A stretch of DNA of 64,000 nt from Paenibacillus sp. JNUCC-31 (GTDB taxonomy: Bacteria > Bacillota > Bacilli > Paenibacillales > Paenibacillaceae), in the NCBI RefSeq assembly GCF_014844075.1, contig NZ_CP062165.1, forward strand, positions 1,364,001 through 1,428,000. The letters are read 5' to 3'. Every line of letters starts with the position of its first letter. Position 1 is the stretch's first letter. Shown piece by piece: positions 1-28,580 of the stretch. The notes under the pieces were generated by a model, which was given only the letters and a program-made list of their open reading frames with translations, did no database searches and had not been told where the DNA came from. The position numbers and the translations under genes were made by a program.

Positions 1-883
1 GATTAATGTAATCGATATCTTCTGGAGCTAGCCTCGCTTGGTCCAATGTCTCTCGAATAACCCTCATTTCTCCTTCGCACGAAGGGTTGGGATTGCGATT
101 GGCATCTGCCGAGACCGACCACCCAAGTATCTCAGCATAAGGTTTTCTGTCTCTCCTTGACATTAAGTCCGCTCGTTCAACAACTACTGCAGCACAATTT
201 TCACCATAAATAAATCCATCCCGATCGCGATCAAACGGCCTGCATGCTTTAGCGGGGATGTCTGCGTATTTATCGCTTCCCATAGCCCCCAATGCGCGGA
301 AACTTTGGCATTCCAAATACGAAAGATCCATCAACGCACCTATCGCAATACAGACATCGACTCGTCCAGATAAGACAGTCTCTGCCGCCTGGATAATAGC
401 CAGTTGTCCACTCGCTGATGCTCCACCAAGTGTGTAAGCGAAGCCTTGTATGCCGAACTGCTCAGTACATAGTCCGCATAGGTCGGAATCCATAAACGAA
501 AGTGCATACGATGGCCGAATAAACGGTACGTTGTCCACGTAACTTTCAAATGTCGTTACCAGTTCCCGCTGTTGAATGTTGGTTCCACCGATGATGAGAC
601 CAATGCGTCGTGGATTAATCTCATCCAGCGACGCATCTTGCCATGCTTCATAAAGTGTCGCGAGTGCCACTTGCCCAGACCATGAGGCGCTACGCAACGT
701 CCTCTTCCCAATCTTTTCAGGAAAAGAAAGAGAAGGAATTTCTGCACCTATAAAGCTGGTCCCCCGTTGCCTTCCAGGTCTTTTCATAACGTCGAACGTA
801 TTTCTGCCCTCTAGCATCGCAGTAGAAAACGCTTCTTGTCCCTGGCCAATGGCGGAGGTAACTCCAATGCCAGAGATGTGCAA
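1..883 (-). CDS. Decarboxylating ketosynthase of a beta-branching cassette (PksF-like), partial
   Basis: Partial gene running off the left edge; 294 codons are visible. A TTG start at 883-881 lies one base after the stop of the ACP gene, so translation is probably coupled. The N-terminus has the ketosynthase opening HISGIGVTSAIG, followed by the thiolase-fold core. At the nucleophile position the motif reads GGASASG (residues 153-159) where active ketosynthases have TACASG: Ser156 replaces the catalytic Cys. In PksF-type enzymes this substitution goes with decarboxylating malonyl-AcpK to acetyl-AcpK, the donor for an HMG-CoA-synthase-like beta-branching enzyme (established for the B. subtilis pks family). 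The neighbouring AcpK-like ACP and the Trp-flagged tandem ACPs of the large PKS support this role. The histidine motifs lie outside the window. Confidence 0.85.
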   Translation of the reverse strand, partial: MHISGIGVTSAIGQGQEAFSTAMLEGRNTFDVMKRPGRQRGTSFIGAEIPSLSFPEKIGKRTLRSASWSGQVALATLYEAWQDASLDEINPRRIGLIIGGTNIQQRELVTTFESYVDNVPFIRPSYALSFMDSDLCGLCTEQFGIQGFAYTLGGASASGQLAIIQAAETVLSGRVDVCIAIGALMDLSYLECQSFRALGAMGSDKYADIPAKACRPFDRDRDGFIYGENCAAVVVERADLMSRRDRKPYAEILGWSVSADANRNPNPSCEGEMRVIRETLDQARLAPEDIDYIN

Positions 884-884
884 G

Positions 885-1133
885 TTAATTGGAGGTATAC
901 TTTTCATATACGATTTCAGCCAACTCTCCGATATTTCTTGCTGAAGCAAGTTCCACACGAGGGATATTCAAAGACAGCGACTCCATCGTCATCGCGACAA
1001 TTTCTGCACGATCTATCGAGTTGGCTCCAAGATTGACTAGCTGATCTTCCTTTTGAAATTCATGCTGCTCCAACTCCGGTAATATTTCGCAAACATGGTT
1101 TACAATAATTTTAAAAATGTCTTGTTTATTCAT
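885..1133 (-). CDS. Free-standing acyl carrier protein, AcpK-like donor ACP
   Basis: An 82-residue protein, the size of a single ACP. The phosphopantetheine site is Ser39 in LGANSIDRAEI, which has the N-S-x-D-R character of AcpK-type donor carriers rather than the DSL core of ordinary PKS ACPs. ATG start at 1133 with GGGAGG seven bases upstream. It sits 16 bp after the giant PKS gene and one base before the Ser-type ketosynthase, the usual order of the acetyl-donor half of a beta-branching (HCS) cassette. It is expected to carry malonyl, then acetyl, to be condensed onto a beta-keto chain held by the tandem ACPs of the PKS. The pairing is inferred from family and context. Confidence 0.87.
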   Translation of the reverse strand: MNKQDIFKIIVNHVCEILPELEQHEFQKEDQLVNLGANSIDRAEIVAMTMESLSLNIPRVELASARNIGELAEIVYEKYTSN

Positions 1134-1149
1134 AAGAACCTCCCATTAA

Positions 1150-4100
1150 TTATAAATTCCGTAATATTTGCTGCGCTTGACCTGCTTTAATCGAACCACG
1201 ATACAACTGTTCCAGAACCTCATCCAAAGACTGAGTTGTCTCCGAAATGGCTGTTTCCTTCCCATCTTTGTCCAGTTCTTTCCTCACGAAGTCCGTAAAT
1301 TCACGCAACGTGGGGTAGTCATAGACTTTAGTTGCGGGTATGGAAGTACAATAACGTGTATTAATATCCTTAATCCATTCCACTCCAATGATAGAATCAA
1401 GACCCATGTCGATAAAGTTCATGTTCCTATCAATATCATCGCTATTCATATACAGAGCATCTGCCAAGCTATATGCCAGATCACTATCCAATAGATCCAA
1501 TCCTTTTTCGGAATTCACATGTGCGTTCTCTAGCTGAACGGCTTGTAACTCCGCACCAAAAGATACGTCGGAAATGAGCGCAGTTATATAGTTAGAAAAC
1601 TCCCGCAACGTGGGGTAATCATAGACTTTGGTAGCGGGTATAGAAATACCAAACTTACTGTTTATCTTTTGAATCCATTCAACGCCGATAATTGAATCTA
1701 GCCCCAGGTCGACAAACTTTCGGTCTGCATCGATATCCTTTGGATCTACGAATAGTGCGTAAGCTAGACCTTCAGTCAATTCTCGCAGAACCGTACTAGT
1801 CTGAGATTCACTTTTTTGCTCCCTCTCTAGTTGTTCGTTGTCTCGAACCGTCAAATCACCTGTTGGCACCAAAACAATCTGTGGCTTAGGCATTACGTTC
1901 TTCTCTTGCTGCCCAAGAGCAGTTTGGAGAGATGCCAGTGATATACCTTGCTGATGAGATTTCCCGACTGGGGGGCTCACATCCAAAACTGGCGCAGCGA
2001 TAGGATTAGCCTGTAATGATTCCACATTATTCAAAACTGGATCTGGCAGAAGGAATTTCTGTTTAGCAAATGGATAACTAGGTAGCCCACCTAATCGTCT
2101 GACCTCTCCTTGCTCGTACAACGCTTCCCAATGAATATCATTTCCTCTCACCCAAAGCTCAGCCAGCTTGCCAATTTTCCCTCCACCAGCTAATCTTTTA
2201 ACAAAATCTTGACCTTCTTCGGTGTCAGTAATCAGCATGCCTGTATTGCTTCCGACCTCACCTGCAAATCCCCCTTGCGGTAATGCACCTTTTCTGTCCA
2301 CATAGTGCTGCAACTGAGAGATCAGCATATCCCGGCTCGTGAATTCGAAAGCAAGTCGGGCTGCCATACTTTGCCTACCCACCTGGAAGGTATAGACCAA
2401 ATCTTTAATGGAGGTCTGCTCATTCTCATTCAGATAGTCAAGCAATTGTTTGGCATACTGCTGGAGCCCCTCTTTGCTCTCTGTGGATATCGGAAGTACA
2501 CCTACTTCCGACGCATATTTCACACGTGCAGGAGTTGTATATGATTCAATTACGACATGCGCATTCGTACCACTAAAACCGAATGAGTTGACCGCTGCCA
2601 TTCTGGAACCTTTAGAGTTGACCGGCCAATTGCTCAACTTCGTATTAACATAAACCGGACTGTTATCAAAATCGATATGTTCATTATTCACATTAAAATT
2701 AATAGATGGCGGTATTTGTTCATGCTGCATACTAAGAAGCACTTTGATTACATTTAAAACACCTGCCGCGGCTGTCGTGTGACCGATATTTGCCTTCAAC
2801 GAACCAATAGCACAGAATCGTTTCTTGTCGGTAAATTTAGCGAATGATTCAGTTAATGCATGCAGTTCTATCGGATCTCCCAGTTTCGTTGCCGTCCCGT
2901 GGGCTTCAATATACTGGATATCTTCCACATCAATCCCGTTCCGCCGATACACATTCTCCTGTAGCTGACTTTGGGACTGGAAGCTTGGTACGGTAATCCC
3001 CGACGTTTGACCATCCTGATTCGTGCCGCTGCCACGGATGACCCCATAAATATGATCGCCATCAGCCTGTGCATCCGCAAGTCTCTTCAATATAAGAACC
3101 CCTACTCCGTCTCCGACGACAATGCCATCGGCGTTTTGATCAAACGGCCGGCATTGACCGGTCGGGGATAACATGCCCGCATGCTGCATCGAGACAAACA
3201 TTCCAGGATGAGTATAGACAGTGATTCCACCTGCAACCGCCATATCGATATCTCCATTTATCAACTGCTTGCATGCCATGTCGATAGCAACAAGTGAAGA
3301 AGAACAGGCCGTATTAACAGCCATTGCTGCTCCCTTCAAATTCAAATGGTATGCGATGCGGGCAGCCAGTATACTCGTGTCGGTTCCAAGCATGGTGAAA
3401 TGGGAATAAGATTCCGAAGGTTGAGACAGACCCATAGCACCAATGATTGTGCCCACTTGCTTACCGTGTAGTTTCTCTGGCGTGTATCCTGCATCCTCTA
3501 GCGCTTTATAGCATTCCTCCAACAAAATTCGTTGTGATACATCAATAGCTCCAGCTTCCTTAGGCGATATTCTGAAAAATTTTGAATCAAACGAATCTCT
3601 ATTCTTCATAACACCGTACCTGTTAGCAAGCTTCTCTTTGGAACTTGAGCGGAGGAAAGCTTTCCAAGCATCGTTATTCAGATCCGAGACTGTTTCTTTG
3701 CCCTGACTGACAATATCCCAAAACTCGTCAGGCCCTTCAGCTCCAGCGCATCTGCAAGAAAGTCCAACAACTGCAATCTCATGATCTGATTTGTGAGCCC
3801 TCTTATCCACCTGGGGTTCCGACACTGCTTCTGCAATAACCGGCTCTGAAACAACTACTTCTTTCTTTGAAGAACGCTTAGGTAGCTGTCCTTCAACATA
3901 GGAAGCAAGCTCTTTTAGCGAGTTATATTCGAATACTATACTTGTCGGCAGTCGAAGGTCGAATTGTACATTGATCCCTTCTGTCAATTGGACAGCGTTA
4001 ACCGACCCAATACCAAGTTCAACAAATGTCTCATGCTCATCCAAATCTTCACGTTGTATGCCCAGAACCTCCTCAAATACGAGCATGATTTCCTCCTTAA

Positions 4101-7100
4101 TCGGACGGATATTGCTTTGTCCAACATTAGAGAAAGAAGAGTTTATGGTTGAGTTTACTTGATTATCAGGAACAGGTTTTGACATAGGGTAAGGAATATG
4201 ACCACTCGCAAGCATCTCTTTCAATGCAGCAGAATACGGCGTCTTGTTCTTGATTCTCGTTGCGTTATATGCGCTACACTCTTCCTTGCTCATTTGCGTT
4301 TCTTTCTTGAGTTTAAATAGGCAATAGCTGATCCAACCATTCTCCAACGATTTACTTTGGTTTGCATAATTCCTGTAGGTATCCCTCGTCACTTCTGGTA
4401 AACCAATCGTGTTTTGATCAACAAATGGATCATAAAGGAAATTTGCAATTTCCGGTGAGACGTCAATAATTTCATCAATAACAAGGTTGTGTTCCGAAAG
4501 TAATTCGATCCAGTCCTGAACGGTTGGAATGCTGATCTCCACCTTGGGATCAATAATGGCTCCCTTGAGGTTGCAGATATAATCCATTAGCAGTAATCTT
4601 CCATCTTTATTAAGCGAAGCGGAAATATTACTGAACAATCCATGCTTGTTACGAATATGAAAGCTAACCTCAATCCCAATAGCCAAATCATACTTATCCG
4701 GGAATGCATCCTTGGAGCTGTCTTTACAGAAGATGGTTGCCCTGTCCCTCAGGCCCTTCTGTTCAATTCGACGATTGCCAAGTTCAGCTTGTGCTGCAGT
4801 GATAGTAAATCCGTGTGTGCTTATGTGAGGATACATTTTAGCCACTTGAATTACATCCGTCCCATGTCCGCATCCGATATCTAAAAATGAACGCACACGT
4901 CTAAAATCTTCCTTGCAGAAGAGCACCTGTCTAAGCTCGATTTGTTTCGATCTCATCTGTTGCATTGCTTTCAAATTTTGATCTGGGAATAGAAACATTT
5001 CGCTCATAGAGAATCCGGGAACCTTCTCCTCAAAAGGACAAAACGTCAGATAATCCTCTGTGAACTCCCAACTGCTCTGCTTAGCCGCAAATGTGTAGAA
5101 CTCGATCGCTTTGTTACTATACTGGGTTTGCGGAGACAACATTTCTGCGCTCTGTTTGGTTTGGAATGCCGTCTTGAAACGACCTACCCAACAGCTCCTA
5201 CGGTTAAACGGATACGTCGGTAGCTTGGCCACTTTACGTCTTTGTTTACCTTGGTGCAGCCCCTGCCAAGCTATAGGATGACCGTTTACCCAATACTGAG
5301 CAATTGTCTCAATATCGTTTTTCATTAAAGCAGTTTTCAGAGTCTGATCAGGGGCAAGCGTTTTTTTAGTAATTTGATTATCCCCTTCATAACACGGTTC
5401 GGATATTTCCGCTTTGTTAAGCCATTGTTCTAATTGCTGTTCCAAGTGAGCTTGGTTTTGGGCTACAAAAGCCAACCTGCACGGCATAGCTTCACGGCCC
5501 ACCTGAAGTGTGTATGCAATGTTAGCCAAATTCACATTTGGGTTCCTTCTCAAATAGACGGCCCAGTCTGCTACGTATTCCACTAGTCGATCACGATTCT
5601 TGGCTGATAAGATGAATAACACCGATTCTTCGTTCAATATGGCATTCGGCACATCATCAGGAATATACTCTTCTACAATGATGTGAGCATTAACCCCACC
5701 TGCTCCGATACTTGTTATCCCAGCTCTTCGTGGAACTTCTACTCCAGCGATGGAAACACGTCTCCACTCTTCCAATGTGCGCTGAATACGGAATGGCATA
5801 GTATCGACATTAATATTCGGATTTACTTCTCCATGAAGCGATGTAGGCACCAAAGTTTGGTTTTGTAAGCACAGTACAACTTTCGCCAATTGAGACATGC
5901 CCGAAGCTGCCTCACAATGTCCGATAATCGGCTTTACAGAACCAATACTATACTTCTCATACTGCTCATTATCTTTCCGCAGCCCATAAGCTTTCGTTAA
6001 AGCGCTCATCTCGATAGCATCACCCATCTCTGAGCCACTAGCTGCAGCCTCTATATAAGTGACTGTGTTAGGATCGATACCGCATTGATTAAGTGCAGCT
6101 TCCATGACCGCTGCTTGTCGGCTCGGATCTGGCGTCGCATATCCGTTCGTCCGTCCGCTATGATTTACTGCAGTACCTCTAATCAATGCATGAATATGAT
6201 CTCCGTCTTTAATCGCCTCTTCATATGCTTTCAGCACAACAACGCCGACGCCTTCTCCGGGAACAAAACCTCTACCATTTCGACCAAACGCATCCCCTAC
6301 GGGACTGTCCGACATCAGTTGTCCTTTAGAAAGCTGAGCGTATCCAGATGGATGAACATATAAATTGACTCCCCCTGCAATGGCCATATCACCTTTACCC
6401 TGTCTGATATATTCACAAGCCTCGTGAATCGCCACTAACGAGGAAGAGCACATTGTATCAATCGGCATACTAGGGCCTTGGATATCTAAATGATAGGAGA
6501 CTCTGTTGACCATCGACGAGAATGAAGTTGCGGGTAATTGACGCAACGCCTCTGAGCCAAGCAGATTATAACCCTGTTTGGTAATCCCTCCGAATACACC
6601 CGTCCGTTGACGCGTATCTTCTGACAATGTTGTTGGAGCATATCCTGCATCCTCCAATGCCTTCCAGCACTCTTCTAAAAATAACCGTTCTTGAGGATCA
6701 ATTTCTTCTGCTTCACTTGGAGTCATATTAAAAAATTTCGGGTCGAATTGGTCGATAGCCTCTAAGAACGCCCCCCACTTTGAACAGCTTTTCCCTAAAA
6801 GTGCTGCTTCTTCTTTACTAGCAACGTAGTGGTCTCGCCAATCCCACCGGTCCAGAGGCACTTCTGTAATACAAGAATTGCCCTCAATCAATTTGTCCCA
6901 ATAAGCTTCAAGATTTTTGGACTGCGGAAAGCGACCGCTGATGCCGATAATGGCGACAGGTTGCTGCGTCTGCATTTGCGAGGATTGCGTTATTTGACCA
7001 ATTGACTGATCATTCACAACTGTCACTTCCTGCATAGCTTGTCTTGTGTGTGGGTAAGTCTCCACTAAGTAATCTGCCAGATCACCGATAGTTTGATATT

Positions 7101-10100
7101 CATAGAAAATCGTTTTAGAGAGCCCACCTACCCATAGCTCCAGTTTGTTATTTAAATCAGCAATCATAAAGGAATCAATACCGTAGTTTTCGAACCGTTC
7201 GTCTTCATCAATCTGAGCAACTTCCAACTTCGCAGCCTTGGCGAATATTGTTTTTAGTCGAAGTATTACCGATGCACGCGCTGGATCCGAAGCGTCTATG
7301 TTTATCGTTTCAGCAACAGGAGCATGAGCAAGTATCTTCAATTCGGGCTTACTGTTCCTCATGGATACCTCCTCCCCCTCTAATACGAGCATGTGATCGG
7401 CATCAAAAGCCAAAGCCATATATAGGGCCTCTAAGCCATTTTGCGTTTTCATTGGTTGAAGTCCGCTCTTCTGTTTCATGTGCGCCTTTTTTTGCTCGTC
7501 CACCTGCATTCCGCCTTCTTCCCAAAGCGGCCATCCGATGGAAATGGTTCGGCCATGCCGCTGTCCATCTTTCATAAGGCGGTTTCTATAACTGGAATAC
7601 GCATCCATGAAAGCGTTCGCCGATGCATAGTCGGCTTGCCCTTCATTTCCGAAAACGCCCGAAATCGAAGAGAACAAGACAAACCAATCTAGCTTCAGAT
7701 CAGCAGTTAATCGATCCAATATCACAAGCCCTTTGGTTTTCGGAGCCGTCACGGCCGTAAATTCCCCAACTGTTTTATTTAGAATATAACTGTCGCTTAT
7801 AACACCTGCACCATGCATAATGCCATCCAGTTTTCCAAAATTGGTTAGGATATAATTAATTAGCCTATTCGTTTCAACCTCTTCGGTTACATCAACTTGA
7901 TGGTACTCAATATAAAATCCCGATACTTTCCATTGCTCGAGACGAGCCATTAGGTTCTGCTGAGGGGTAGACCTCCCTGTTAGAATCAGCTTCGCACCGG
8001 GCGCCTTTGCCGCCATATCTTCAGCTAAAATCATACCAAGCCCGCCTGATCCTCCCGTAATGAGATAAACGCCACCATTTTTCCAAGGTAGCTCCTTGGT
8101 CGGGGGAGATCCAGCATCTTGCCATGCTTTAACGTAACGTTCTCCATTCTCATAACGGACGTGTTGATCAGCGGAATGCTTCCCGCTTTCCATTACTATG
8201 TGCGCTAGAATCTCTGCGTCTGGCCATTTATCAAGTTCGATAAGTTGACAAACCAGCTTCGGGTTCTCAAGTCTGGCCGTATGAAGTATTCCGGATAAAC
8301 CTGTAAATAATTGTTGCTCGCCGAAAACAGGAACGACAACTTGAAACAACACATTTTCTTTTGGTTTCTGGCGAATTATGCTTTGAAGCTCCTGCAGTAT
8401 CCGCACGCCATATTGTTGGAACCTATCGAATATATCTACCTGATCTGCGTGTAACTCATGGTAACTGACCCCATCCATGATAGACTTAAATGTCTTGCCG
8501 TCTAAGTCGTTAGGTTCGCATAGAAAGATCACATGCCCGTCATGACTGGATAAACGAATAGGTTCTACCGAACTTTCCTGCCAGTGCGGAAGAAGAAAAG
8601 CAGTGCTCAAGGATTCAACAGTAGCCGTAGATGTAAGCTGACGAACTAGGCTAACCTTCTCTTCCGGAACCCAGTACCGGTCCTTGGCGAATGGATATGT
8701 CGGCAGGCTCATTCGGCTCGGTTTATTCCCTGCATACAAGCCGTTCCAATCGACGGAAAGCCCCTTGCTCCAGAAGGCTAGCAGTTTGTCATATTTCCCT
8801 TTTTCCATCCATGCCTGTGCTACCGTTTGCCAATCTTCGTCCCCTCCGATCAGCGCCATTGCTTCTTTATCCTTCCTTGCCTGCCCTGTGTATAGGTCAG
8901 TATGCTCGTCTTTCCCTTCCACATAGCCATGCAATTTGTCCTTCAGTTCTTCCAACGAAGCTGCTGTGAAGCCCAGGCGCTCGTCCATCGCTTCTCTCCC
9001 GACTTGCAGGGTATATGCTACTCGCTCCAGTTCCGACTCACCAATGGCTCCGCGCTGGATCGCTTCAAGCAACAAGCGGGCTTGTTCGTTCAGACGCTCT
9101 GCGTTTTTGGCCGATAAGATAATGATTACCGGCTGTTCTCCTCTCACCGCTTTTACCGGGTTAGACGTTTGTGCTACATACTCTTCAATCACCACATGCG
9201 CATTTGCCCCGCCAAACCCAAATGAGCTTACACCTGCACGCCGTGGAATTGCGTTTCCTTCCTCATCTTCAAGTGCTTTCCACTCCTCTTCTTCCTGTAC
9301 AATATAGAACGGACTGTCTTTCAGTTGGATATAAGGGTTGATCGTCTCACAATGTAAACTTTTCACGAGCTTTCTATGCTTCATTTGTAACAGCACTTTT
9401 ATCACGCCTGCCACACCTGCCGCCAGCTCCAAATGTCCAATATTGCTCTTTACAGAGCCGAGTCCACATCTTCTTTCCGGTTGGTTTACTTCTCCCGTAT
9501 CTTGGTACAGCGTCTTGAAAGCCGACTTTAACCCGTTGATTTCAATCGGATCCCCCAGTGAGGTCCCCGTACCATGTGTTTCGATATATGTCACTGTTCC
9601 TGGATCGATTCCCGCTTGCCGATAGGCTGAAAGCAAGAGATCTGCTTGGGCTTTCGGATTAGGTGCAGTGAGTGACGCAGCCCGGCCCCCGTGATTTTCC
9701 GCGGTTCCGCGAATCACGCCATAGATGTGATCCCCGGAAGCCTCGGCTTCGCTCAGCTTCTTCAGTAAGAGCATGCCAACCCCTTCGCCTCTCACATACC
9801 CATTCGCTTCGCTTGAGAATGTCTTGCATCGCCCGTCCTCACATAACATTCCCGCTTTGCTGAAGCTGATCTGCAGCTCTGGCGATACGATTGTATTTAC
9901 GCCTCCGGCAATGGCCATTTCACAGTCACCACTCTGAATAGCTCTTACCGCACGGTGGATGGCGACTAGAGAACTGGAGCAGGCCGTTTCTATCGGTTCG
10001 CTCGGTCCGTGAACGTTCAGAAAATAACTCATCCGGTTCGGTCCGACAGAGGGAACCATTCCTGTAGAAGAATAACCTTCAATTGTAATATTCGCACGCA

Positions 10101-15534: not shown

Positions 15535-15537
15535 ATT

Positions 15538-16371
15538 TTAAACCTCCCCCACAGACATTTTCTCGCCAACGGCCATATAGAGCTGGCGAAGGATCGCATG
15601 ATCCTCACTCTTCACCACATTACGCCACTGTACTGAAATATCTGCTAACACTTTGCTAGGCAAAAAACCGTCACGCACTAGCTTTGACGGAATCCCAATC
15701 CCTTCCGATTTGAAAAACTTCTCATCTCCGACCACTTCGCTATGAGCACTTATGACTTCAAAATCAATATTTGAGAGTCCTCCTCTTTTCAAAATCAAGG
15801 GTAATTCTCTGCCTATTTTCGGGTTCCCCCCTTCTTGCGATCTGGATTGACAATATGCTTCATATAGCTCTCTTAACGAACCAAAAGAGGGGAAGGTCAT
15901 AATATGCATTTCAAAATCATTATCCACAAAAATAGCTTTCCCACCTGGCTTGATTATTCGGCAAATCTCACGCACAGCACCTACCGGATCAGGCAAATGC
16001 TCGAGCACGAGCCTAGTAATGGCAAAGTCAAACGAGTTGTCAGGGAACCCTGTCGTCATGATTGACCCTTGTACTATCTCATAACGATCAAACTGGTTCT
16101 CCTTCAAATATTGGGCGGCGTATTCCACTAGAATAGAATCAATTTCTAGAGCTGTTATATGGATATTAGGTAACGTTTTCAATAGATTCTCAGTCACAAA
16201 TCCCGGTCCCGAACCAAGCTCAGCGATTTTCATGCCATCTTCCAGACCGAATTCGACGTATCGCTTAAACTCTTTATCCCAAAACAAATCAACCTGAGCC
16301 TTTAAACGATTAATTTCTTTATCAATATTGCTTGCGATCGTACTAATCTGATAGGAACCTTGCGAACTCAT
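15538..16371 (-). CDS. Class I SAM-dependent methyltransferase, tailoring
   Basis: A 277-residue soluble protein with the Rossmann-fold SAM signature IAELGSGPGF near residues 49-58, an acidic ribose-binding ALEID strand, and the FPDNSFDF post-motif typical of UbiE/Methyltransf_11 proteins. ATG start at 16371 preceded by GGAGGG; the gene overlaps the stop of the alpha/beta hydrolase by four bases and ends three bases before the PKS start, so it is cotranscribed with the PKS. It probably methylates an oxygen or carbon of the polyketide or a released intermediate. Substrate and atom cannot be read from the sequence. Confidence 0.85.
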   Translation of the reverse strand: MSSQGSYQISTIASNIDKEINRLKAQVDLFWDKEFKRYVEFGLEDGMKIAELGSGPGFVTENLLKTLPNIHITALEIDSILVEYAAQYLKENQFDRYEIVQGSIMTTGFPDNSFDFAITRLVLEHLPDPVGAVREICRIIKPGGKAIFVDNDFEMHIMTFPSFGSLRELYEAYCQSRSQEGGNPKIGRELPLILKRGGLSNIDFEVISAHSEVVGDEKFFKSEGIGIPSKLVRDGFLPSKVLADISVQWRNVVKSEDHAILRQLYMAVGEKMSVGEV

Positions 16372-17168
16372 AATTTGCCCTCCACCACTTTCAATTTTTC
16401 TTGCAAAAAAGTAGCAATCTTATCGGCAGCTTGTTTCCAGTTTGGATCCAACATCATATCATGACACATATCAGCAAAAATGATCGGTTCAACATGATAA
16501 GCTTTACCTAGGTGTCGAAGTGATTTTTCCGCAAAAAGGTTATCACTCTGAGATCCAATAATAAGAAGCGGTACCTGAACAGGAAAAATTCGCGGCACAA
16601 TTCGCCTGCACATTTCCATACCTACTCTGTTAGATTCGGGTTGGAGAAGTGCAGCGAAACGAACTGTCTGTTCATCACTTAATCTATTATTGAACAATAG
16701 AGGGTATGGAAATTTTTTGGTACTTGTTTGATTAAAGGCGTTTAACTGAAACATCCATCCTGTTTTCTTTAGAAATAATCTCATTAAAGAACCAAGCATA
16801 CCGTTCGGTGGGACAGATGAAAGTAATACAGCGGCTCTTATCGTTTCTGGCGCTGTATGCATAATTTGTTGCACGATTGCCCCGCCCATAGAATGACCTA
16901 TTAGAATCGGCCTTTCGTTCATTTGGCCAATCGCTGTGACACAATCCTCTTTGTAGTCGCGGAGTGAATACGAATGCAGTTTATCACGCCCTTCGCTATG
17001 ACCATGTCCACGCAAACTGATCGCATAGCATGAAAATCCAAGGGCGGAGAAGTAAGGTATAAAATATTCCTCCCAACACCATGCCCCGTGGTAAGCTCCG
17101 TGTATGAACAGAATAGGTGGAAGCATTCCTGTATTTTCATTACGCTTAGATATCATTTCGATCTTCAT
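16368..17168 (-). CDS. Alpha/beta hydrolase, possible type II thioesterase-like editing or release enzyme
   Basis: A 266-residue alpha/beta-hydrolase-fold protein. The oxyanion strand reads FIHGAYHGAWCW, the nucleophile elbow is GHSMGG with Ser93, the acid is probably Asp209 (GSQSDN) and the base His236 (MCHDMM). No signal peptide is seen, so it is cytoplasmic. Its ATG overlaps the TGA/TAA end of the AT-AT-ER gene by one base. Stand-alone hydrolases in PKS operons may unload stalled acyl-ACPs, release or cyclise the product, or hydrolyse a modified form. The acyl-hydrolase-type first AT of the neighbouring protein may already cover editing, so a post-PKS role is equally possible. Confidence 0.82.
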   Translation of the reverse strand: MKIEMISKRNENTGMLPPILFIHGAYHGAWCWEEYFIPYFSALGFSCYAISLRGHGHSEGRDKLHSYSLRDYKEDCVTAIGQMNERPILIGHSMGGAIVQQIMHTAPETIRAAVLLSSVPPNGMLGSLMRLFLKKTGWMFQLNAFNQTSTKKFPYPLLFNNRLSDEQTVRFAALLQPESNRVGMEMCRRIVPRIFPVQVPLLIIGSQSDNLFAEKSLRHLGKAYHVEPIIFADMCHDMMLDPNWKQAADKIATFLQEKLKVVEGKL

Positions 17169-20100
17169 TAAACAAGGCTCCCTGTTTTAAATGCGTTGAT
17201 ACGTGCATTAACGAGTGCAGCTGTCTCCCTCATCATGGTAATGCCAATCTCGTCCACATGACGGTTTCTCCAACTCTCCATCGCTGTTCCCTTAACCCAC
17301 TGGTTAAAGGATCCTAGTGCAGGACCACAATGTATTTGAAAATCAACCTTATGTTCCAATTGGCCACTCATAGCAAGTCGTGTTGAATGTCCAAAGTACC
17401 ATCGGAAAATCAAAGCCATTTTGTGTTTGGTATTTCGCTCAGCTTTCTCAATTTCTTGTGGAGGTTGATAATCTAGAACTTCCTGATACACTTCTTCAAA
17501 CGAACGATTGAAATATTTCTCTTGAAGCAACCGCTTCGTTTTTTCATCTATCTCATCAATGGAATTGTACTGCTTATAGAGCTCATACAGCTTATTAGCC
17601 CGTACAGGAAAAAATAATCCCTTCTTCAGTACTTGTACTTTTGCTCCGATCTCGAACATATCGCCTGCTGGTGCATACGCAGTATCCTGTACATTAGCCT
17701 CCTGCAGTAAATCTTTTGCCGCATCACTTGTATCTGCCTCAATAGTGCATTGGTTGATGGAACCTGTCACGATAAAGTCTGCACCAAGCATAAACGCAGC
17801 CATTGCAGCAACCGGAGTACCTATCCCCCCCGCTGCACCAACCCTAATCCTTTTACCATAACCATATTTCTTCATCATCTCATCGCGAAGCAATGTGATC
17901 GCCGGCATTAATGCGTATGCTACACCTGAATCTGTGTGTCCCCCAGAATCAGCTTCCACACATATGTCGTCAGCCATAGGTACTTTGCTCAACAGTCTAG
18001 CTTCAGTAGCCGTGATTTTATTGAGCTCAACAAGCTTATCAACCATTCTCTGCGGTGCTGGACTTAGGAAAGCTTCCGCAACCTCTGGTCTTGATAATTT
18101 AGCGATGATTCGATTTCCAATGCTGATGCCTCCGAATGCTGTTTCCGTCAACCCTTTTGCTCTGTAGATGATCAAAGATGGAACAATGCCCATAAAGGCG
18201 GAGGCTTCAATATTTTTTATACCGTACTTTAAAAATAAGGATATCGTATGTTCCTCTGCCGACGGATCGGACGGGTTATGAAGTAGGTTCATCCCGTACG
18301 CTTCTCCTTGGCTCAGCTCCTTTTGAATCGACTGGATACTTCGTTCAATCCGGTCTAGACGAAGTCCCCCGGTACCATAAAATCCAAGCATTCCGGCTTT
18401 AGCTACACGTATAACCATTTTTTCGGAAGCGATGCCGCGGTACATTGCACCTGTGACATAAGCATACTTAAGACCATAATCCTCCTTAAATTGCTTATCA
18501 CCCAATGACTCGCCTGTGACCAGACCTTCTACAATTTCGGTGTTGTTCGTGCCGGTAACCTTTTCCGTCATCTTATCTGTAGTCACACTTGAGACAGGAA
18601 CGATGGGCGTTGCTTCTTTCCGTATGTAGCCTACCAACTTGGTCAGCACGTTACCAGGTCCAACTTCTGTGAAATCGACTTCACCCAAACCAAGTAAATA
18701 GCGAATAGTGTCATTCCACTTTACTGGACTAACAATCTGTTTGATTAGATTGCTGCTGATATCTTCCTGCAAATAAGGTTGTGCGTGAACATTAGAAATA
18801 ACAGGAATAGACAGCTTGGAAAAGCTATGTTCAGCCATAAATTGTTCAAATTGTTGTTGGGCATCTGCCATATAACGAGAATGAAAGGCTCCACTCACAT
18901 TCAGTGGCACATACATTTTGGCCCCCGATTCTTCAAAAATCGACTGAGCCTGTGCAATATCATTCTTCTGTCCAGCAATAACAACTTGGGACGGTGCATT
19001 ATGATTGGCCACATCGATACCTGTCAGATGGTTCTCATGTAAAATATTACGCACCTGTTCGATGGTTAAACCAATAACCGCAGCCATTCCACCCACAGGA
19101 GCCTGGCTCATCAGCTCTCCACGTCTTTTGACCAGTTTTAAACCTGTTTCAAAGTCAAATGCTCCAGCGGCTAACAATGCGTTATACTCACCTAAACTGT
19201 GCCCAGCTACATAATCGGGCAATTGGTTCGTTTGCTCCACTTTTTTGTAAAAACTAAGCGCAGATACAACGTATAAAGCTACTTGCGTATATTGAGTTTG
19301 ACCTAATTGTCGATGCGGATCTAAGAGACAAAGTTCTTTTATGGAATACCCGAGAATTCGGTCTGCTTTTTCCGTCAAATCTCGATATTGATCAAACAAC
19401 TCTCCCCCCATACCTTTGTGCTGAGATCCTTGTCCAGGAAAAAGATATACATTCATTGAACTCCGCCCTTTCTTATTCGAATTGGTTTCAGATAGGCCAC
19501 TCAATTTTGCATATATTCGCTTATAATTGGCTTCATTACTTCCAAACGGTGTCATAATCGAATAACACTCCGATTGGGATTGTTCAGATAGTATCCTTTT
19601 GGCTAGATTAGTCAACGTTCCCGATGGGCCTACGTCAAGATAAACATACTCTGATTCTCTTTCCAGTAGACGGATAGCCTCTTCAAAATGTATTGGGCCT
19701 CGTACAACATCCCAAAAATAATTGTATGTAACCGTTTCCAATCGCTTCCCATAACGCGACGAAAGAAAGCCAATTTGTGATGGCCCTAATGTCTTAGTTT
19801 GGGTAGAAACGTTAAGTTGTTCCGCAGCATTATCAATCCATGAAGAATGGAATGCAAACCGTACTGGCAGCGTTTGGGTAATGATACTCTTAGCTGCTAA
19901 ACGTTGTTTAATGGCTTCAATATTCCTCGTCAAACCTGATAAAACAAAGTGTGTATCACCCGTTTTGGATGCCATCTCACATTCCATTTTGAGCTGCTGA
20001 TCGTCTTCATAGTGACTGTAACTGCCGAGTACCGCCAACATTTGTCCAGCCTGACAATGCGTTTCTATAGCCTTCGCATGGGCAAGTAACAAGTGAAGTG

Positions 20101-20449
20101 CATCAACAGGGGCTATCAAGCCAGCGACCGATGCAGCAGCGAATTCCCCTACACTACTTCCAAGAACACATTCTGGGATTATGCCATCCGCTATTAGTGA
20201 CTGAGCCATAGCGAATTCGACCATAAATATGGCCGGATGCGAATACAGTAGTCGATCAAATGGTTCGTCCTTGCGGTTGCTCTTGTCAAACATTCGAGAA
20301 ATCACAGATTCACCTATTTCCGCTTGTATCTGATCGTCGAGTACTTTCATCCAATAGCGGAAAGTTGAATTGTTCTCATACATGTCCTTGCCCATATGAA
20401 AGTATTGGGAACCTTGTCCGGAAAATAAAAATACTACACTTTTCCCCAT
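17168..20449 (-). CDS. Trans-acting acyl hydrolase-malonyl transferase-enoyl reductase fusion (AT-AT-ER)
   Basis: A 1093-residue tri-domain protein. AT1 (1-320) has GSSVGEF with Ser99 and AFHSSW with His201, the pattern of the acyl-hydrolase (proofreading, PedC/PksD-like) clade. AT2 (331-640) has GHSLGEY with Ser418 and GAFHSRYM, typical of the malonyl-CoA:ACP transferase that loads every module in trans. The C-terminal half (about 650-1093) is a PfaD/PksE-type FMN enoyl reductase with the signature EADSGGHTD. The layout matches MmpC-like AT1-AT2-ER proteins of trans-AT clusters. ATG start at 20449, overlapping the end of the metallo-hydrolase gene by 16 bp. The large PKS has no AT or ER, so this protein should serve it. 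Confidence 0.93.
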
Positions 20450-21144
20450 AATCCACTATCCCTTTTCCATGTTTGATTTTTCCGCATACGGAACTGAACA
20501 AAATGCTCTTGGTGTTCCAAAGCAAAATAAATATTATTCGTGAGCAAATAGCCCAGCATACGACTGCCAGGCTCTTCGCCGTAGGAATGCCCTGAGTATA
20601 TGCGAACCGATGGACGTACAATACGTTTAATTTTTTGAATACTTTCATACATCTGATGTGCAGATCCCCCAACTGTTTCACATGATCCACAGCCTTCGAT
20701 AAATACCGTATCTCCACAGAACAAACTTTCAGTTAGTAAATAGCATGTGCCTCCTAGCGTATGACCGGGCGTCAGCAAACACATGATTTGCGTCCCCCCT
20801 AACTGAATATGGTCAAAGTCATTTAGAGCATTTAGATTTTTACTTGAGAACTTGTAAAATTCTATTTCAATGCGGGACATATAAACCTGAGCTCCATAAT
20901 AATCAACCAATTCAGGTACCATATTGATATGGTCATTGTGGGAATGTGTTAACAAAATCATTGATGGAATAACGCCAAGCTCTTTACAAGCTGTTTTAAT
21001 CATTTGAGCATCCCACGCCGGATCAACGATTGCCGTTTGCCTGGTCATTCGGTCAACAATAATGTAAATATAGTTTATAAGGTGTGGAGGTCCTGCTTTT
21101 AACGTCGTAATTTCGTACGTCTTATTCTCGCTTATGTCAAACAT
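20434..21144 (-). CDS. PksB/BaeB-like metallo-beta-lactamase-fold hydrolase
   Basis: A 236-residue MBL-fold protein with the zinc motif THSHNDH (His67, His69, Asp71, His72), then [14 protein letters not shown] and YSGHSYG as the remaining metal ligands. It resembles glyoxalase II and the PksB/BaeB proteins that open many Bacillus trans-AT clusters, just ahead of the AT genes as here. Members are thought to hydrolyse acyl thioesters and may release blocked intermediates; its role in this pathway is inferred. The gene overlaps the PPTase gene by 13 bp at its 5' end and the AT-AT-ER gene by 16 bp at its 3' end. Confidence 0.87.
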
Positions 21145-21902
21145 AACCTTAGCCTCTCATTTAGTGTATTTAGGAACTGCGTGAAATCGATACATAATTT
21201 TTTGGGATAGGTTATCGAACACACATACATTCCGAAGATAACGGATACTGTCTGATATTGAGGAAAATGGGTAAACAAACTTCGTACTATTCCAGCATCC
21301 ACATCCACGGTTGTTGGTTTTTGAAGTTCATACAAAGAAAAACAGGTAGTCAGACCTGTTTTTAATACTTTAGATAAGGATTCCTTTGCAGTCCAGAACA
21401 TAGTAAGCGTTGCTTCTGTGGAAAACGGTAAGTCCTCGATGAAACCCTTCTCCCAATCAGTCAATTGCGATAAGAACAAGTCTATTCTAGTTGGGTCGAT
21501 TCGTTCGATATCGATTCCCATGGGTACCGCTTCAGGGAAGGCTAACGCTGCCCCGAGTTCGTCACAATGGGTGATGCTTACTTGCATATTTTGTTTATTT
21601 GGATGCACTACAATTGGGTGGTCCAATATTCCTCTATCGATCCAAATCTGATTTAAACGCCCCTCCCCAATCGCCCCGGAGAGCGAACATTTAGCAGCGT
21701 ATCTTCCTGCTAAATAGCTTTGCTTCCTTCTATCGGCAAGACCCTGATTTAGATAATCCAGCTCGTATGGATGCAAAATATCTACCACTTGTAGACTTTG
21801 AGTATAATTTGAGGAATAACACAAGCTAAAGCGGAAATAGCGCTGCTCACCCCTCTCAGTATTGGACCATTCATGTTCGACCAGTACAGGCAGTCGGACC
21901 AA
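21132..21902 (-). CDS. Sfp-type 4'-phosphopantetheinyl transferase
   Basis: The protein carries the Sfp signatures GIDIERID and FWTAKESLSK, whose acidic residues bind Mg2+ and the diphosphate of coenzyme A. It transfers phosphopantetheine to the carrier serines of the PKS and the free ACP. An in-frame TTG at 21932 would give 266 residues but has no ribosome binding site. The TTG at 21902 has AGAGGTGGGGGAG directly upstream (21905-21917), so the 256-residue form starting MVRLPVLVEHEW is preferred. It is the first gene of the PKS operon. Confidence 0.9.
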   Translation of the reverse strand: MVRLPVLVEHEWSNTERGEQRYFRFSLCYSSNYTQSLQVVDILHPYELDYLNQGLADRRKQSYLAGRYAAKCSLSGAIGEGRLNQIWIDRGILDHPIVVHPNKQNMQVSITHCDELGAALAFPEAVPMGIDIERIDPTRIDLFLSQLTDWEKGFIEDLPFSTEATLTMFWTAKESLSKVLKTGLTTCFSLYELQKPTTVDVDAGIVRSLFTHFPQYQTVSVIFGMYVCSITYPKKLCIDFTQFLNTLNERLRLCLT

Positions 21903-22092
21903 TTCTCCCCCACCTCTATTCTTCTTGTTCAACTCGAAATATGTGCTTAAAATCGGACAATATTTCCTCTTTTTATTTTACGTATAGTACTTTTATAGAA
22001 ACCAAAAATAAGCCATCAAGACACACCTTCCCCAGGTCGTCTGTAAGCTTATTACACACTACAACGTAGTAAATGACTATAAACGATTCATC

Positions 22093-22122
22093 CATTCAAC
22101 GTGCCGAAACAACGATTGAATG
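22093..22122 (-). promoter_or_regulatory. Leader RNA hairpin, candidate LoaP recognition element
   Basis: In minus-strand RNA, CAUUCAA pairs perfectly with UUGAAUG. The stem continues through a bulged U to CG/CG and UG/CA pairs closed by a UUUCGG loop. No U-tract follows, so it is not an intrinsic terminator. LoaP proteins bind a hairpin in the 5' leader of their target operon (established for the difficidin leader). Location, orientation and the adjacent divergent loaP make this the best candidate; the assignment is inference. Confidence 0.45.
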
Positions 22123-22131
22123 AAACAGATA

Positions 22132-22167
22132 ATTGTAACATTAAGGCAGATAGGTCAATATTGTCAA
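22132..22167 (-). promoter_or_regulatory. Candidate sigma-A promoter of the PKS operon
   Basis: On the minus strand a consensus -35 TTGACA (22162-22167) is followed after 17 bases by TTAATG. An overlapping alternative is TTGACC (22153-22158) with TACAAT (22132-22137) after 15 bases. Neither pair is ideal, so the exact -10 is uncertain. Initiation here would place the 22093-22122 hairpin within the first few dozen transcribed bases. Confidence 0.4.
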
Positions 22168-22448
22168 TTTCTTTTGGAATTCATAGGTAATAATGATCAT
22201 ATAAAAAAATACATTGAAATGAACTTTTACACTTCCTTTTCTTTCCTCCTAAGTATATAATGATCCAGTGTTGGTTTACAATTATCATTTTTGTAAATTT
22301 ATTTCAACATTTTTCGACATAGAATGATCTTTTTTTGAGAAGAATTATTTTTTTACAAAAAAACGTTATAACTTCATGTACAAATTTACATAGTCATGAT
22401 TTAATTGGATAAAACATCTAATTAATGGATGAGTAAGGGTGTTGAGGT

Positions 22449-23099
22449 ATGAAATGGTATGCACTCTCAGTACAAACAGGAGAAGAGAACAAAGCGAAGT
22501 TATTTTTACAAAACAAGTTTGACCAACATGTTTTACAATGTTTAGTGCCCAAACGTCTTGTTCCAGAGCGAAAAAATGGCGAGGTGTATCATGCAGTTAA
22601 ATTGATATTCCCTGGATATTTATTTATTAGAACCCACATGACATTCAAACTCTATTATGAGATAAAAAAAACACCTAGAGTGTTAAGTCTTTTGAGTTAT
22701 CTGAATCCTAAAGATCGGTGTTGTGATTGGAGCAAAAAGTCTATTTCGAACATGGGTGATTCCGTTGATGAAGATACTTTCTTCAAGAACGTGCCGGATG
22801 ATGAAATGAGTCAGATTCTCAAGTTGTTGGATGACAAGGGTATGCTGAGTTACTCCCAAGTTGTCGTTCAAGAGTCTGAAGTATTTGTTCAGTCTGGGCC
22901 ACTAACAGGGATGGAAAGCATGATCAAGAAAATTGATAAACGCAAAAAAAGAGCAAAGGTCTCCATCCATTTCTTGGATTCAGATAAAGTGATCGACGTC
23001 GGAATTGATGTGATTTCATCTCCGTCTATCACGGAACAATCACAAAATAATCGTTTAGGAGGAACAAGCATTGGCGGTTTTGAAAACAGCGGAAACTAA
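22449..23099 (+). CDS. loaP: LoaP-type NusG paralogue, processive antiterminator
   Basis: A 216-residue protein with an N-terminal NGN domain (MKWYALSVQTGEENKA, then FPGYLFIR, the NusG signature) and a C-terminal KOW domain from about residue 140 (FVQSGPLTGMES...KRAKVSIHFL). It is longer and more divergent than housekeeping NusG. LoaP proteins load on RNA polymerase at a leader RNA hairpin and suppress termination over long biosynthetic operons. This gene is divergent from a PKS operon of at least 22 kb and shares a transcript with the exporter, matching that role. ATG start at 22449, 10 bases after AAGGGTG. Confidence 0.88.
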   Translation: MKWYALSVQTGEENKAKLFLQNKFDQHVLQCLVPKRLVPERKNGEVYHAVKLIFPGYLFIRTHMTFKLYYEIKKTPRVLSLLSYLNPKDRCCDWSKKSISNMGDSVDEDTFFKNVPDDEMSQILKLLDDKGMLSYSQVVVQESEVFVQSGPLTGMESMIKKIDKRKKRAKVSIHFLDSDKVIDVGIDVISSPSITEQSQNNRLGGTSIGGFENSGN

Positions 23100-24294
23100 G
23101 CAATTAGGTCCAAAGAAAGCAGCTCTAAATTTTATATTCTTCACCATATTAATTGATTTTTTAGGTTATGGTATCATTGCTCCACTATATGCATTTTACG
23201 TATTGCAGTTCTCCACCTCAGCATTTATTATAGGTTTGCTAGCCACTTCATACGCTCTCATGCAGTTTATATTTTCACCCATTCTGGGGGCTTTATCAGA
23301 TCGATTCGGCAGGCGTCCTATCCTCTTACTTTCACAGCTAGGTGCAGCTATCGGGTACATTCTCTTTGCAACATCAGATCAGCTCTGGTTATTATTTGTC
23401 TCCAGAATGATAGCCGGCTTAACAGCTGGGAACATTTCAACAGCCCAAGCTTATATCGCCGATGTCACCTCCATTGAGAATCGTTCTAAAGGATTTGCCA
23501 TTTTTGGAGCCGCATCCGGGTTGGGTATTGTATTAGGTCCACTTATTGCTGTTGTCGCCGTAAAACATAGCCTTGCGTTACCCTCTTTGGTCGCAGCAGG
23601 ATTCGCACTGTTGAATTTAATTTATGGACTGTTTGTTTTACCAGAATCACATGTAAAACGGACAGCACGCTCGTTAACCATCTTTAATCCAATCAAAACA
23701 CTTGTAAAATATTTATCTATGCCACGTGTAAACATCATTACACTTGCCATATTTATGATGTACCTATGTTACCTTAGTATTCAGACCATTTTGGCACTAT
23801 TTGCGGTCGACCGCTTCGGTTATGGGCCTTCACAAGTGGCATACATTTTAACTTATGTTGGCTTTCTATCAGTCGTCTTTCAAATTGGCTTACACAAAGT
23901 CATTAACAAATTCCCAGAATACAAGTTGGGGGTTTCAGCCTTTATAATCATCGTTATGGGATACTTAGGCACAAGCTTTTCTTATAATCTATGGATGTTG
24001 ATTATATCACTGACCGTAACCTCTTTAGGTAATGCCATTGTACAAACCATTTTGTTGGGACGACTCTCTAGACTTGCTCCTGAAAGCGAGCAAGGTTCCA
24101 TAATGGGGGCATCTCAATCTATGAATTCACTTGCTGCCATTATTGGTCCAATTCTCGGAGGGCTGCTGTACCAATATTTTGGTGCAGGAGCACCTTATCT
24201 GGGCGCAGTCGTCTTCGCACTTATTGCACTCAGCTGTTTCACGTTCTCATTTAATAAGGTTGGCCAGACAAGTACAAATCAAAAAATGATTTAA
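23071..24294 (+). CDS. MFS drug:proton antiporter (DHA1/TetA-like), probable polyketide exporter
   Basis: A 407-residue integral membrane protein with about 12 hydrophobic segments. It has the major facilitator motif A GALSDRFGRRP after TM2 and a glycine-rich GAASGLGIVLGP in TM5, as in TetA-like antiporters. TTG start at 23071 with a perfect AGGAGG (23057-23062) eight bases upstream; the start overlaps the end of loaP by 29 bp. Co-expression with loaP next to the PKS operon suggests export of, and self-resistance to, the polyketide. Substrate specificity is inferred from position only. Confidence 0.88.
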   Translation: MAVLKTAETKQLGPKKAALNFIFFTILIDFLGYGIIAPLYAFYVLQFSTSAFIIGLLATSYALMQFIFSPILGALSDRFGRRPILLLSQLGAAIGYILFATSDQLWLLFVSRMIAGLTAGNISTAQAYIADVTSIENRSKGFAIFGAASGLGIVLGPLIAVVAVKHSLALPSLVAAGFALLNLIYGLFVLPESHVKRTARSLTIFNPIKTLVKYLSMPRVNIITLAIFMMYLCYLSIQTILALFAVDRFGYGPSQVAYILTYVGFLSVVFQIGLHKVINKFPEYKLGVSAFIIIVMGYLGTSFSYNLWMLIISLTVTSLGNAIVQTILLGRLSRLAPESEQGSIMGASQSMNSLAAIIGPILGGLLYQYFGAGAPYLGAVVFALIALSCFTFSFNKVGQTSTNQKMI

Positions 24295-24305
24295 GGAGAG
24301 ATCAA

Positions 24306-24689
24306 ATGGATAAAACGAATAATCTTAGTACAGTTAAGGAACATGATCTTGTTATTACACATCTTACCGGAAATATCTCTGTAGACGATGTAAACCACTG
24401 GTATGACGATTTCATTTCTGTTTGCCAACCATTATTGGATAATGGACAAAAATTCAAACTACTGGTTAACAGACTACCTTATCAAGCGGAGCACTTTACT
24501 GTCCAAAAGACTTGGAGAGAAAAGTTCTTTAATGATTCTTTACTCAAACAATGTAATGCCATTGCTTTTGTGATTGAAAGCGGGGACGTTATGAGTCATT
24601 TAAAAGAGACTTATACTTCCGAGAAGGTTCAATTTTTCAATGATTATTCAGAAGCTCATCAATGGATCACTAACTTTACTGCATCTTAA
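24306..24689 (+). CDS. Small STAS/SpoIIAA-like protein of unknown function
   Basis: A 127-residue soluble protein beginning 11 bp after the MFS gene with AAGGAGA as ribosome binding site, so it is third in the loaP operon. The alternating pattern (LVITHLTGNISVDDV, KFKLLVNRLPY, CNAIAFVIES, VQFFNDYSEAHQWI) resembles the beta-alpha repeats and final 'FxdxxeAxxWL' helix of the SpoIIAA-like STAS fold. A conserved phospho-serine is not obvious. STAS proteins bind other proteins or small ligands. A role in regulation or resistance tied to the cluster is possible but not shown. Confidence 0.7.
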   Translation: MDKTNNLSTVKEHDLVITHLTGNISVDDVNHWYDDFISVCQPLLDNGQKFKLLVNRLPYQAEHFTVQKTWREKFFNDSLLKQCNAIAFVIESGDVMSHLKETYTSEKVQFFNDYSEAHQWITNFTAS

Positions 24690-24734
24690 TATTAGAAACA
24701 AGGGAGATTGCCCAAGTCTCATCCCTAAGCTAAG

Positions 24735-24764
24735 GCCGTCGAGAAAGTATCGACGGCTTTTTTA
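24735..24764 (+). terminator. Rho-independent terminator of the loaP-MFS-STAS operon
   Basis: Perfect 8-bp stem GCCGTCGA/TCGACGGC with a 7-base loop followed by a run of seven T, 46 bp after the STAS-like gene. Confidence 0.9.
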
Positions 24765-26808: not shown

Positions 26809-26826
26809 AACAGATACCTCGTTTGT

Positions 26827-26864
26827 AAAAAAAGAAAATGCCAATAGTTATCGACATTTTCTTT
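26827..26864 (-). terminator. Attenuating terminator between sacB and levB
   Basis: On the minus strand AAAGAAAATG (26855-26864) pairs with CATTTTCTTT (26831-26840), the 3' arm running into a U-tract (26827-26833). The stem is AU-rich and sits inside the sacB-levB intergenic gap, so it likely reduces levB expression relative to sacB rather than ending transcription. Confidence 0.65.
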
Positions 26865-26889
26865 CTTTTAGATTCTCTGCGGAATTGGT

Positions 26890-28341: not shown

Positions 28342-28380
28342 TAGATGTATCCCTCTCTCTTGTCATTTTTTCCGGAAAAC

Positions 28381-28468: not shown

Positions 28469-28580
28469 GACATATTCAACTGTCGATAACTATTCTATAT
28501 GGTCGGATCAAAATTTGGCTATAGATCGAAACTCCCGATTCGGATCAAGGACCAGGGACTCAGTTTATCAAGCATCATAA

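Follow-up and report, generated by a model that had tools for sequence, protein, structure and literature searches.

The DNA analysed here (the window) is a 64,000-nt stretch of the Paenibacillus sp. JNUCC-31 genome (NZ_CP062165.1, assembly GCF_014844075.1, genome positions 1,364,001-1,428,000), whose left part carries the first genes of a trans-acyltransferase (trans-AT) polyketide synthase (PKS) operon and, divergent from it, an operon with a gene for the antiterminator LoaP. An earlier reading of positions 1-24764, made from the letters alone (the sequence-only reading), had described a trans-AT cluster with no recognised counterpart, truncated by the window. Re-reading of coordinates and domains bears out its gene order and overlaps (Table 1); the truncation holds for the window but not for the genome, where the cluster is complete on a single contig of 7.55 Mb. 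Followed leftward, as had been proposed, the PKS operon goes on along the same strand for about 50 kb past window position 1, to genome position 1313865. Counting the divergent loaP-MFS-STAS operon, the cluster thus occupies genome 1313865-1388689, about 74 kb. In that divergent operon, the LoaP and MFS assignments stand and the STAS label also holds, weakly.

Gene content and trans-AT equipment

To the left of the window lie the rest of the beta-branching cassette, six further proteins of PKS or non-ribosomal peptide synthetase (NRPS) type and, as the last two cluster genes, L013 (179 aa) and L012 (441 aa); the gene beyond L012 encodes a DJ-1/PfpI protein on the opposite strand. Taken in product order, the proteins are PKS1 (4794 aa), a small acyl carrier protein (ACP; 82 aa), a ketosynthase (KS)-like decarboxylase (428 aa), an HMGS (421 aa), two ECHs (258 and 248 aa), and PKS2 to PKS7 (1735, 2164, 4859, 2767, 2185 and 1223 aa).

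Table 1. Features of the cluster and its leader within the window (window positions)
Position	Strand	Feature	Basis
1..958	-	KS-like decarboxylase of the beta-branching cassette; 329 bases extend past the window	PF00109/PF02801; GGASASG at the active-Cys site
885..1133	-	Free-standing ACP of the cassette, AcpC-like	PF00550, 2.9e-7
1150..15534	-	PKS1: ACP-ACP / KS1-DH-KR-ACP / KS2-KR-ACP / KS3(0)-oMT-ACP / KS4-ACP-ACP	Pfam, motifs, own-HMM map
8669..10475	-	KS2 tract shared with KS13 of PKS5	blastn and boundary check; end one residue past LPTYPFAKDRYW
15538..16371	-	Free-standing methyltransferase (MT), Art28-like putative malonyl-ACP O-methyltransferase (proposed chain initiation)	Identity to relatives, tree
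16368..17168	-	Alpha/beta hydrolase, proposed Art9-like methyl esterase	PF00561; gene position beside the MT
17168..20449	-	AH-AT-ER: acyl hydrolase (AH), malonyl AT, FMN enoyl reductase (ER)	PF00698, two stretches; pfaD TIGR02814 above cut-off
20434..21144	-	MBL-fold hydrolase, PksB/BaeB-like	PF00753; 50% to bacillaene-cluster homologue; SolJ model matched below cut-off
21132..21932	-	PPTase (4'-phosphopantetheinyl transferase)	PF01648, 2.8e-11
22004..22053	-	Candidate leader terminator, AATAAGCT...GGCTTATT-TTT, between hairpin and first gene	Fold of the stretch, -17.3 kcal/mol (RNAfold)
22090..22125	-	LoaP-type UNCG-class RNA hairpin in the PKS operon leader; core TGTTTCGGCA at 22102-22111	Core in six other trans-AT leaders; covariation; leave-one-out model
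22449..23099	+	LoaP antiterminator, divergent	NF033641, 204 bits (cut-off 125)
23071..24294	+	MFS exporter	PF07690, 9.5e-54
24306..24689	+	SpoIIAA/STAS-like protein (weak)	PF11964, 25.7 bits (cut-off 25)

The trans-AT assignment of the sequence-only reading agrees with three features. The segments of PKS1-7 gave no match to the AT family, which is found in the AH-AT-ER protein, so that the modules would be served in trans; 13 of the genome's 14 matches to PF22336, the RhiE-like KS linker, lie inside the cluster; and the KS clades track the upstream domains, as described below. A further linker of this kind occurs at genome 481118-481318, in a 3980-aa frame (L092) that is possibly a second PKS with trans-AT-like features. 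The AT-bearing protein had been read as AT-AT-ER. At 42% identity, the first of its AT-like domains resembles the PksD-type acyl hydrolase of a bacillaene cluster more than the AT of that cluster (25%), and we therefore correct the protein to AH-AT-ER, an arrangement named for OzmM (PMC11775670). Its ER carries GGHT, and a GGHT/I motif marks trans-ERs (PMC10921412).

The beta-branching set is complete by domains (ACP, decarboxylating KS, HMGS, two ECHs and tandem acceptor ACPs), in keeping with the beta-branch foreseen in the sequence-only reading. The HMGS is 75%, and the ECHs 69% and 57%, identical to their counterparts in the bacillaene cluster. For the cassette decarboxylase, the bacillaene cluster compared offers no counterpart, a point that weighs against the overall reading.

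Assembly line and chain initiation

The assembly line totals 15 KS domains, one NRPS module, two beta-branching modules and two split dehydrating bimodules. Pfam and motif searches reproduce the PKS1 domain order given in the sequence-only reading, down to its non-elongating KS (KS0): in KS3, AASGS replaces HGTGT, as expected for such a domain. The remaining proteins read KS5-KR-ACP-KS6(0) (PKS2), DH-ACP / KS7-KR-ACP-KS8(0) (PKS3), DH-ACP / KS9-DH-KR-ACP / KS10-DH-KR-MT-ACP / KS11-ACP-ACP (PKS4), KS12-DH-KR-ACP / KS13-KR-ACP (PKS5), truncated MT-ACP / KS14-ACP / C-A-PCP (PKS6) and KS15-KR-PCP (PKS7). The automated motif search missed the slightly deviating motifs of KS4 and KS15, and KS motifs were read from the sequences: the active Cys is kept in all 15 KSs, and just three, KS3, KS6 and KS8, have lost the first His, all at places where a KS0 would be anticipated.

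Some domains weigh against a fully working line. In the last ACP of PKS5 the serine is absent (GFDP), and in PKS6 the MT has lost both its N-terminal part and the catalytic His; with these two lesions module 13 is partly decayed. The KR of PKS7 also scores low, at 50.5 bits versus 120-180 for the other KRs. The two lesions could be taken to mean that the whole assembly line is decaying and makes no product. We think this improbable, as the PKS frames are open (up to 4859 aa), the KS active sites are preserved as just described, the near-identical tracts within the cluster (see below) are recent, and module 13 retains a serine-bearing ACP, located in PKS6.

A maximum-likelihood tree, of the kind recommended in the sequence-only reading, was made from all 15 KSs and all 14 KSs of a cluster in genome G543, which we take to be the bacillaene cluster from its gene order and sizes. 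KS6 and KS8 group with the two bacillaene KS0s of split bimodules (support 100/100), KS7 and KS9 with the bacillaene KSs that follow a split DH-ACP (100/100), and KS5 and KS12 with BaeL_K3, the KS after the bacillaene ACP-ACP module (100/100), the placement of both being that expected downstream of a beta-branch. KS10 groups with a bacillaene KS downstream of KS-DH-KR-ACP (100/99), KS11 with one downstream of KS-DH-KR-MT-ACP (100/99) and KS15 with two downstream of C-A-PCP (99/99). The upstream domains therefore agree with those of a well-supported tree partner for nine of the 15 KSs, or for 11 when a weaker group is counted, in which KS2 and KS13 join BaeJ_K2, BaeN_K2 and BaeN_K3, all following DH-KR modules (89/90; 100/99 with BaeR_K2 included). 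KS1, KS3, KS4 and KS14 have no close partner among the 14 bacillaene KSs.

KS2 and KS13 stand apart from KS10, and this bears on the alkene that the sequence-only reading had assigned to module 1. KS10 follows the conjugated-ene module 9; because KS2 does not group with it, the alkene becomes doubtful, and a saturated (trans-ER) or otherwise different module-1 unit is at least as likely. The KS2/KS13 grouping may point to trans-ER reduction to a saturated unit, or to an alkene of a different type. It had been considered as proof of trans-ER action at modules 1 and 12 and was lowered to a possibility, in that the BaeN KSs of the group may take alkenes. The substrates of the bacillaene KSs in this group are presumed ones, which counts against leaning on it.

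The closest solved relatives of the module 3 MT are chain 6hp1 (E 5.6e-126) and those of StiD/StiE, which we take to be O-methyltransferases; because of these matches, methoxy is preferred and hydroxyl set aside where the sequence-only reading had left "beta-hydroxyl or methoxy". For the MT found in PKS4, the matching chains are those of DisA and CurJ, presumably C-methyltransferases. The A-domain signature of PKS6, read by eye, is D-V-W-H-F-S-L-I-D, which we take to be a serine code, so that the domain would be of serine type.

Chain initiation is suggested by the free-standing MT encoded just upstream of PKS1. This protein is 63% identical to a homologue from Thermoactinomyces daqus H-18 and 67% to one from Brevibacillus formosus, the strain compared being presumably DSM 9885. 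Malonyl-ACP is the reported methylation substrate of Thd235 (T. daqus H-18) and Brf335 (B. formosus DSM 9885), and Art28 is reported to start the aurantinin chain as a malonyl methyl ester (PMC8302727). In a tree of 42 rows, the MT lies inside a group of 26 that holds the T. daqus and B. formosus enzymes and is split from 16 distant MTs of the same family (100/100). The split is partly one of choice, because the 26 came from a search seeded with this MT and three relatives; the inner placement is unaffected. The gene of a proposed esterase and the N-terminal ACP-ACP of PKS1 are both present, as in initiation of the Art28 type, the hydrolase being likened to Art9 by position. The Art28/Art9 analogy predicts a chain that starts as a malonyl-ACP methyl ester and is de-esterified at the end. 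It weighs against this that the likeness to Art28 is drawn through the T. daqus and B. formosus homologues and not through the Art28 sequence. The MT and hydrolase, both of broad families, might alternatively be late tailoring enzymes with no part in protecting the starter, and a BioC model reaches only 45.6 bits with the MT (cut-off 185). This alternative seems unlikely to us in view of the grouping with MTs of two organisms whose enzymes were assayed on malonyl-ACP (PMC8302727), of the hydrolase homologue that, in 14 of the 27 named loci, sits immediately before the MT (loci covering up to 10 kb on each side, our own species possibly left out), and of the start of PKS1, which is ACP-ACP and has no starter-loading domain.

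LoaP and the leader hairpin

LoaP antitermination has been shown for the difficidin and macrolactin operons (PMC12691694), which have in common with the present cluster LoaP, a UNCG-type leader hairpin and a very long PKS operon, the hairpin of the difficidin (dfn) operon being likened by description. The LoaP of the window is the only one of two NF033641 matches in the genome to exceed the cut-off. The leader hairpin (Table 1) was found by folding combined with a core pattern, so that the motif was picked after looking; rules demanding a perfect stem missed it because of its bulges. Its 10-mer core TGTTTCGGCA occurs once in the window (0.25 expected) and in 10 of 95 loci, two of which (L035 and L050) are without such a stem and two (L048 and L054) the same DNA as L066 and L067; the other six core-bearing loci all have it in leaders of trans-AT operons. 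A leave-one-out model, independent of the choice of motif and built from the six other hairpins, finds the window leader as its sole match in the genome up to E 10 (E 5.3e-7).

In the alignment of the seven hairpins 95.7% of cells are paired. Both sides have changed in four of the ten pairs, a count reached by three of 500 shuffles, and the covariation score was reached by none of 500; the structure used in these comparisons was drawn from the same seven sequences. LoaP is present in seven of the 27 named loci, within the stretch examined, and the hairpin in five of those seven; L067 also bears the hairpin, but its contig begins there. Among 75 genomes of the genus, a survey with stricter filters that lose weak matches found the hairpin in 15, LoaP in 21 and both in 11. 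LoaP is thus found in 11 of 15 genomes with the hairpin versus 10 of 60 others (Fisher p 5e-5; 1.4e-4 without our own genome). In G029, G036, G067 and G068 hairpin and LoaP share a contig at a distance of about 48-56 kb, which might mean that LoaP lies at the far end of a long operon.

Several observations tell against a role for this pair. A simple terminator scan of the leader reported none, and promoter-like matches in it are at chance level (two found versus 3.0 expected). Of the five covariation measures, the one that counts further pair types is unremarkable, with 84 of 500 shuffles scoring as high. L065 and L068 have LoaP but no hairpin, 10 of the 21 LoaP genomes of the genus lack a hairpin match, and four hairpin genomes (G021, G033, G040 and G064) lack LoaP at a threshold of E 1e-25. 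A search of the leader against Rfam gave two sub-threshold matches, taken as chance. LoaP and the leader hairpin fit, by analogy, the difficidin/macrolactin mechanism: LoaP would bind the UNCG-type hairpin, and RNA polymerase would then pass terminators. Separately, the hairpin at G033:C63:12709-12744 is strong (E 2.4e-6) in a genome that has no LoaP, and may be an orphan target.

Beyond the loaP operon, the window holds a GH32 invertase, a GH68 levansucrase and a PTS EIIC protein clustered at 25252-30983, probably a sucrose/levan locus, and at 36401-39940 a single 1179-aa frame that matches both GH20 and GH3.

Internal tracts, relatives and the predicted product

Three pairs of near-identical tracts were found by blastn within the cluster. 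The longest joins residues 609-1714 of PKS2 to 1016-2121 of PKS3 (98.6% over 3316 bp; linker-KR-ACP-KS0), the second residues 1687-2289 of PKS1 to 1546-2148 of PKS5 (94.1% over 1811 bp; KS2 and KS13), and the third residues 475-920 of PKS3 to 499-941 of PKS4 (90.1% over 1338 bp). G+C is 0.47-0.55 in the kilobases covering the tracts versus about 0.44 around them. The 98.6% identity of the first pair might raise the suspicion of an assembly artefact. We consider that explanation very improbable: both frames are open, 41 differing codons (25 synonymous, 16 not) are spread along the block, flanks and tails differ between the copies, and the bacillaene cluster likewise has two KS0 / DH junctions. 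In the second tract, the first 150 residues are 71-90% identical at the nucleotide level; identity then rises to 97-100% and drops to 33% from one residue past LPTYPFAKDRYW. LPTYPFx5W is a proposed recombination site that has been used as a fusion site for trans-AT PKSs (PMC11260071). The natural end of this tract, one residue past the motif, resembles the boundary of such exchange units; the likeness concerns one tract end only, for the start of the 3.3-kb tract lies 27 residues ahead of the motif and the third has its end at a different place.

The cluster might be assigned to a product family that has been characterised before, on account of the many blocks in common with bacillaene (bae/pksX), of a start shared with aurantinin and with 12 further clusters counted, one of them from Paenibacillus sp. 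Mc5Re-14 (PMC8302727), and of Paenibacillus sp. NPDC056933, for which a 98% relative of L012 is listed. The blocks shared with the bacillaene cluster of G543 are AH, AT, AT-ER and MBL proteins, HMGS/ECH/ECH, split KS0 / DH bimodules, KS-DH-KR-MT-ACP and KS clades. The bacillaene cluster differs in its A-PCP-C-A-PCP start and module order, neither of which is found here, and the region of it that was read has no match to the Art28-like MT. Aurantinin (art, from B. subtilis fmb60) differs by the description of art, which is proposed to join two chains into a tetracyclic, glycosylated product (PMC8302727); the present cluster has one operon order with an NRPS module. A trans-AT PKS/NRPS cluster of cave Paenibacillus strains was considered as the same cluster and judged unlikely to be so, its A domain being predicted for glycine (PMC7829367).

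In 22 of the 27 named loci the best stretch is 31-55% identical to PKS1, and in the other five no stretch matches it. A search of 394 family genomes gave three besides our own with an MT exceeding 55%: G018 and G206, where the contigs measure 3.7 kb and 18 kb, and G284, where a different PKS with two large frames is found. No description of the cluster was found among the open-access papers listed, most subscription papers lying outside the search, and we know of no polyketide of this order. On these grounds membership of a characterised family is unlikely, and the view of the sequence-only reading that this is not a known cluster stands. No characterised cluster of this order was found in the loci and papers compared, and the product is probably an undescribed one; the methyl-ester starter and RNA-hairpin antitermination both have precedents in related antibiotic clusters. 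In several genera, Paenibacillus included, there are trans-AT PKS families lacking any reported representative (PMC7930024), and for that reason an orphan cluster in this genus is not surprising.

The reactions, substrate order, release, regulation and product proposed here are read from the genes, domains, KS clades and hairpin, by colinearity. AH-AT-ER would load malonyl onto the N-terminal ACPs of PKS1, and the Art28-like MT would methylate its free carboxyl, enabling the chain to start. Modules 1-3 would supply two ketide units, the last of them bearing the beta-methoxy group (KS3 being non-elongating and the MT of O-type), and modules 4 and 11, both KS-ACP-ACP, beta-methyl branches made through the ACP/decarboxylase/HMGS/ECH/ECH cassette. 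Modules 5-10 are predicted to form conjugated double bonds, two through the split KS-KR-ACP-KS0 / DH-ACP bimodules and another carrying an alpha-methyl group. From modules 12-14 would come a unit that is either saturated or an alkene, then one with a beta-hydroxyl and one with a beta-keto group. PKS6 would incorporate serine and PKS7 add a final, possibly reduced, ketide. The predicted product is a methoxy-hexaene with a carboxyl start and a serine-derived end.

Since no thioesterase domain was found in the PKS segments (E 0.001), the best candidate for release is L012, a stand-alone acyltransferase of the condensation/PapA5-type fold with a conserved HxxxD; the hydrolase would free the starter carboxyl afterwards. 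Release by L012 is a guess from fold, motif and the thioesterase-free PKSs. A sequence search of the PDB with L012 gave no match, and among the 75 genus genomes it has one relative besides itself (32% identity, G047); it tells against the assignment that no PKS lies within the 60 kb read around that relative, the one neighbourhood examined. L013 (genome 1315234-1315773) is given no pathway role because it has no family match, relatives of it occur in 33 of 398 sampled Bacilli genomes (own included), and the nearest fold to its AlphaFold model (pLDDT 89) is a weak match, the DNA mimic DMP19 (E 0.053).

We hold it quite probable that the locus is a complete trans-AT PKS/NRPS cluster with an Art28-type start, a methoxy-bearing branched polyene, a serine unit and a LoaP-gated leader. 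The methyl-ester starter logic, the LoaP hairpin and the recombination tracts go beyond the sequence-only reading, as do, outside the window, the NRPS module, the second beta-branching module and the remainder of the assembly line. More tentatively, and with a little less than an even chance of holding in all its parts, we propose both that the scaffold is an undescribed one (a methoxy-hexaene primed with malonate methyl ester, with two beta-methyl groups and one alpha-methyl group, serine, one more extension and release by L012) and that the KS tract is a recent natural recombination cut at LPTYPFx5W. If so, the tract would be a natural example of the recombination boundary now used for engineering trans-AT PKSs, the skeleton of an antibiotic-type polyketide would be predicted closely enough for a search by mass and UV, and LoaP with its hairpin would be a switch for turning the cluster on.

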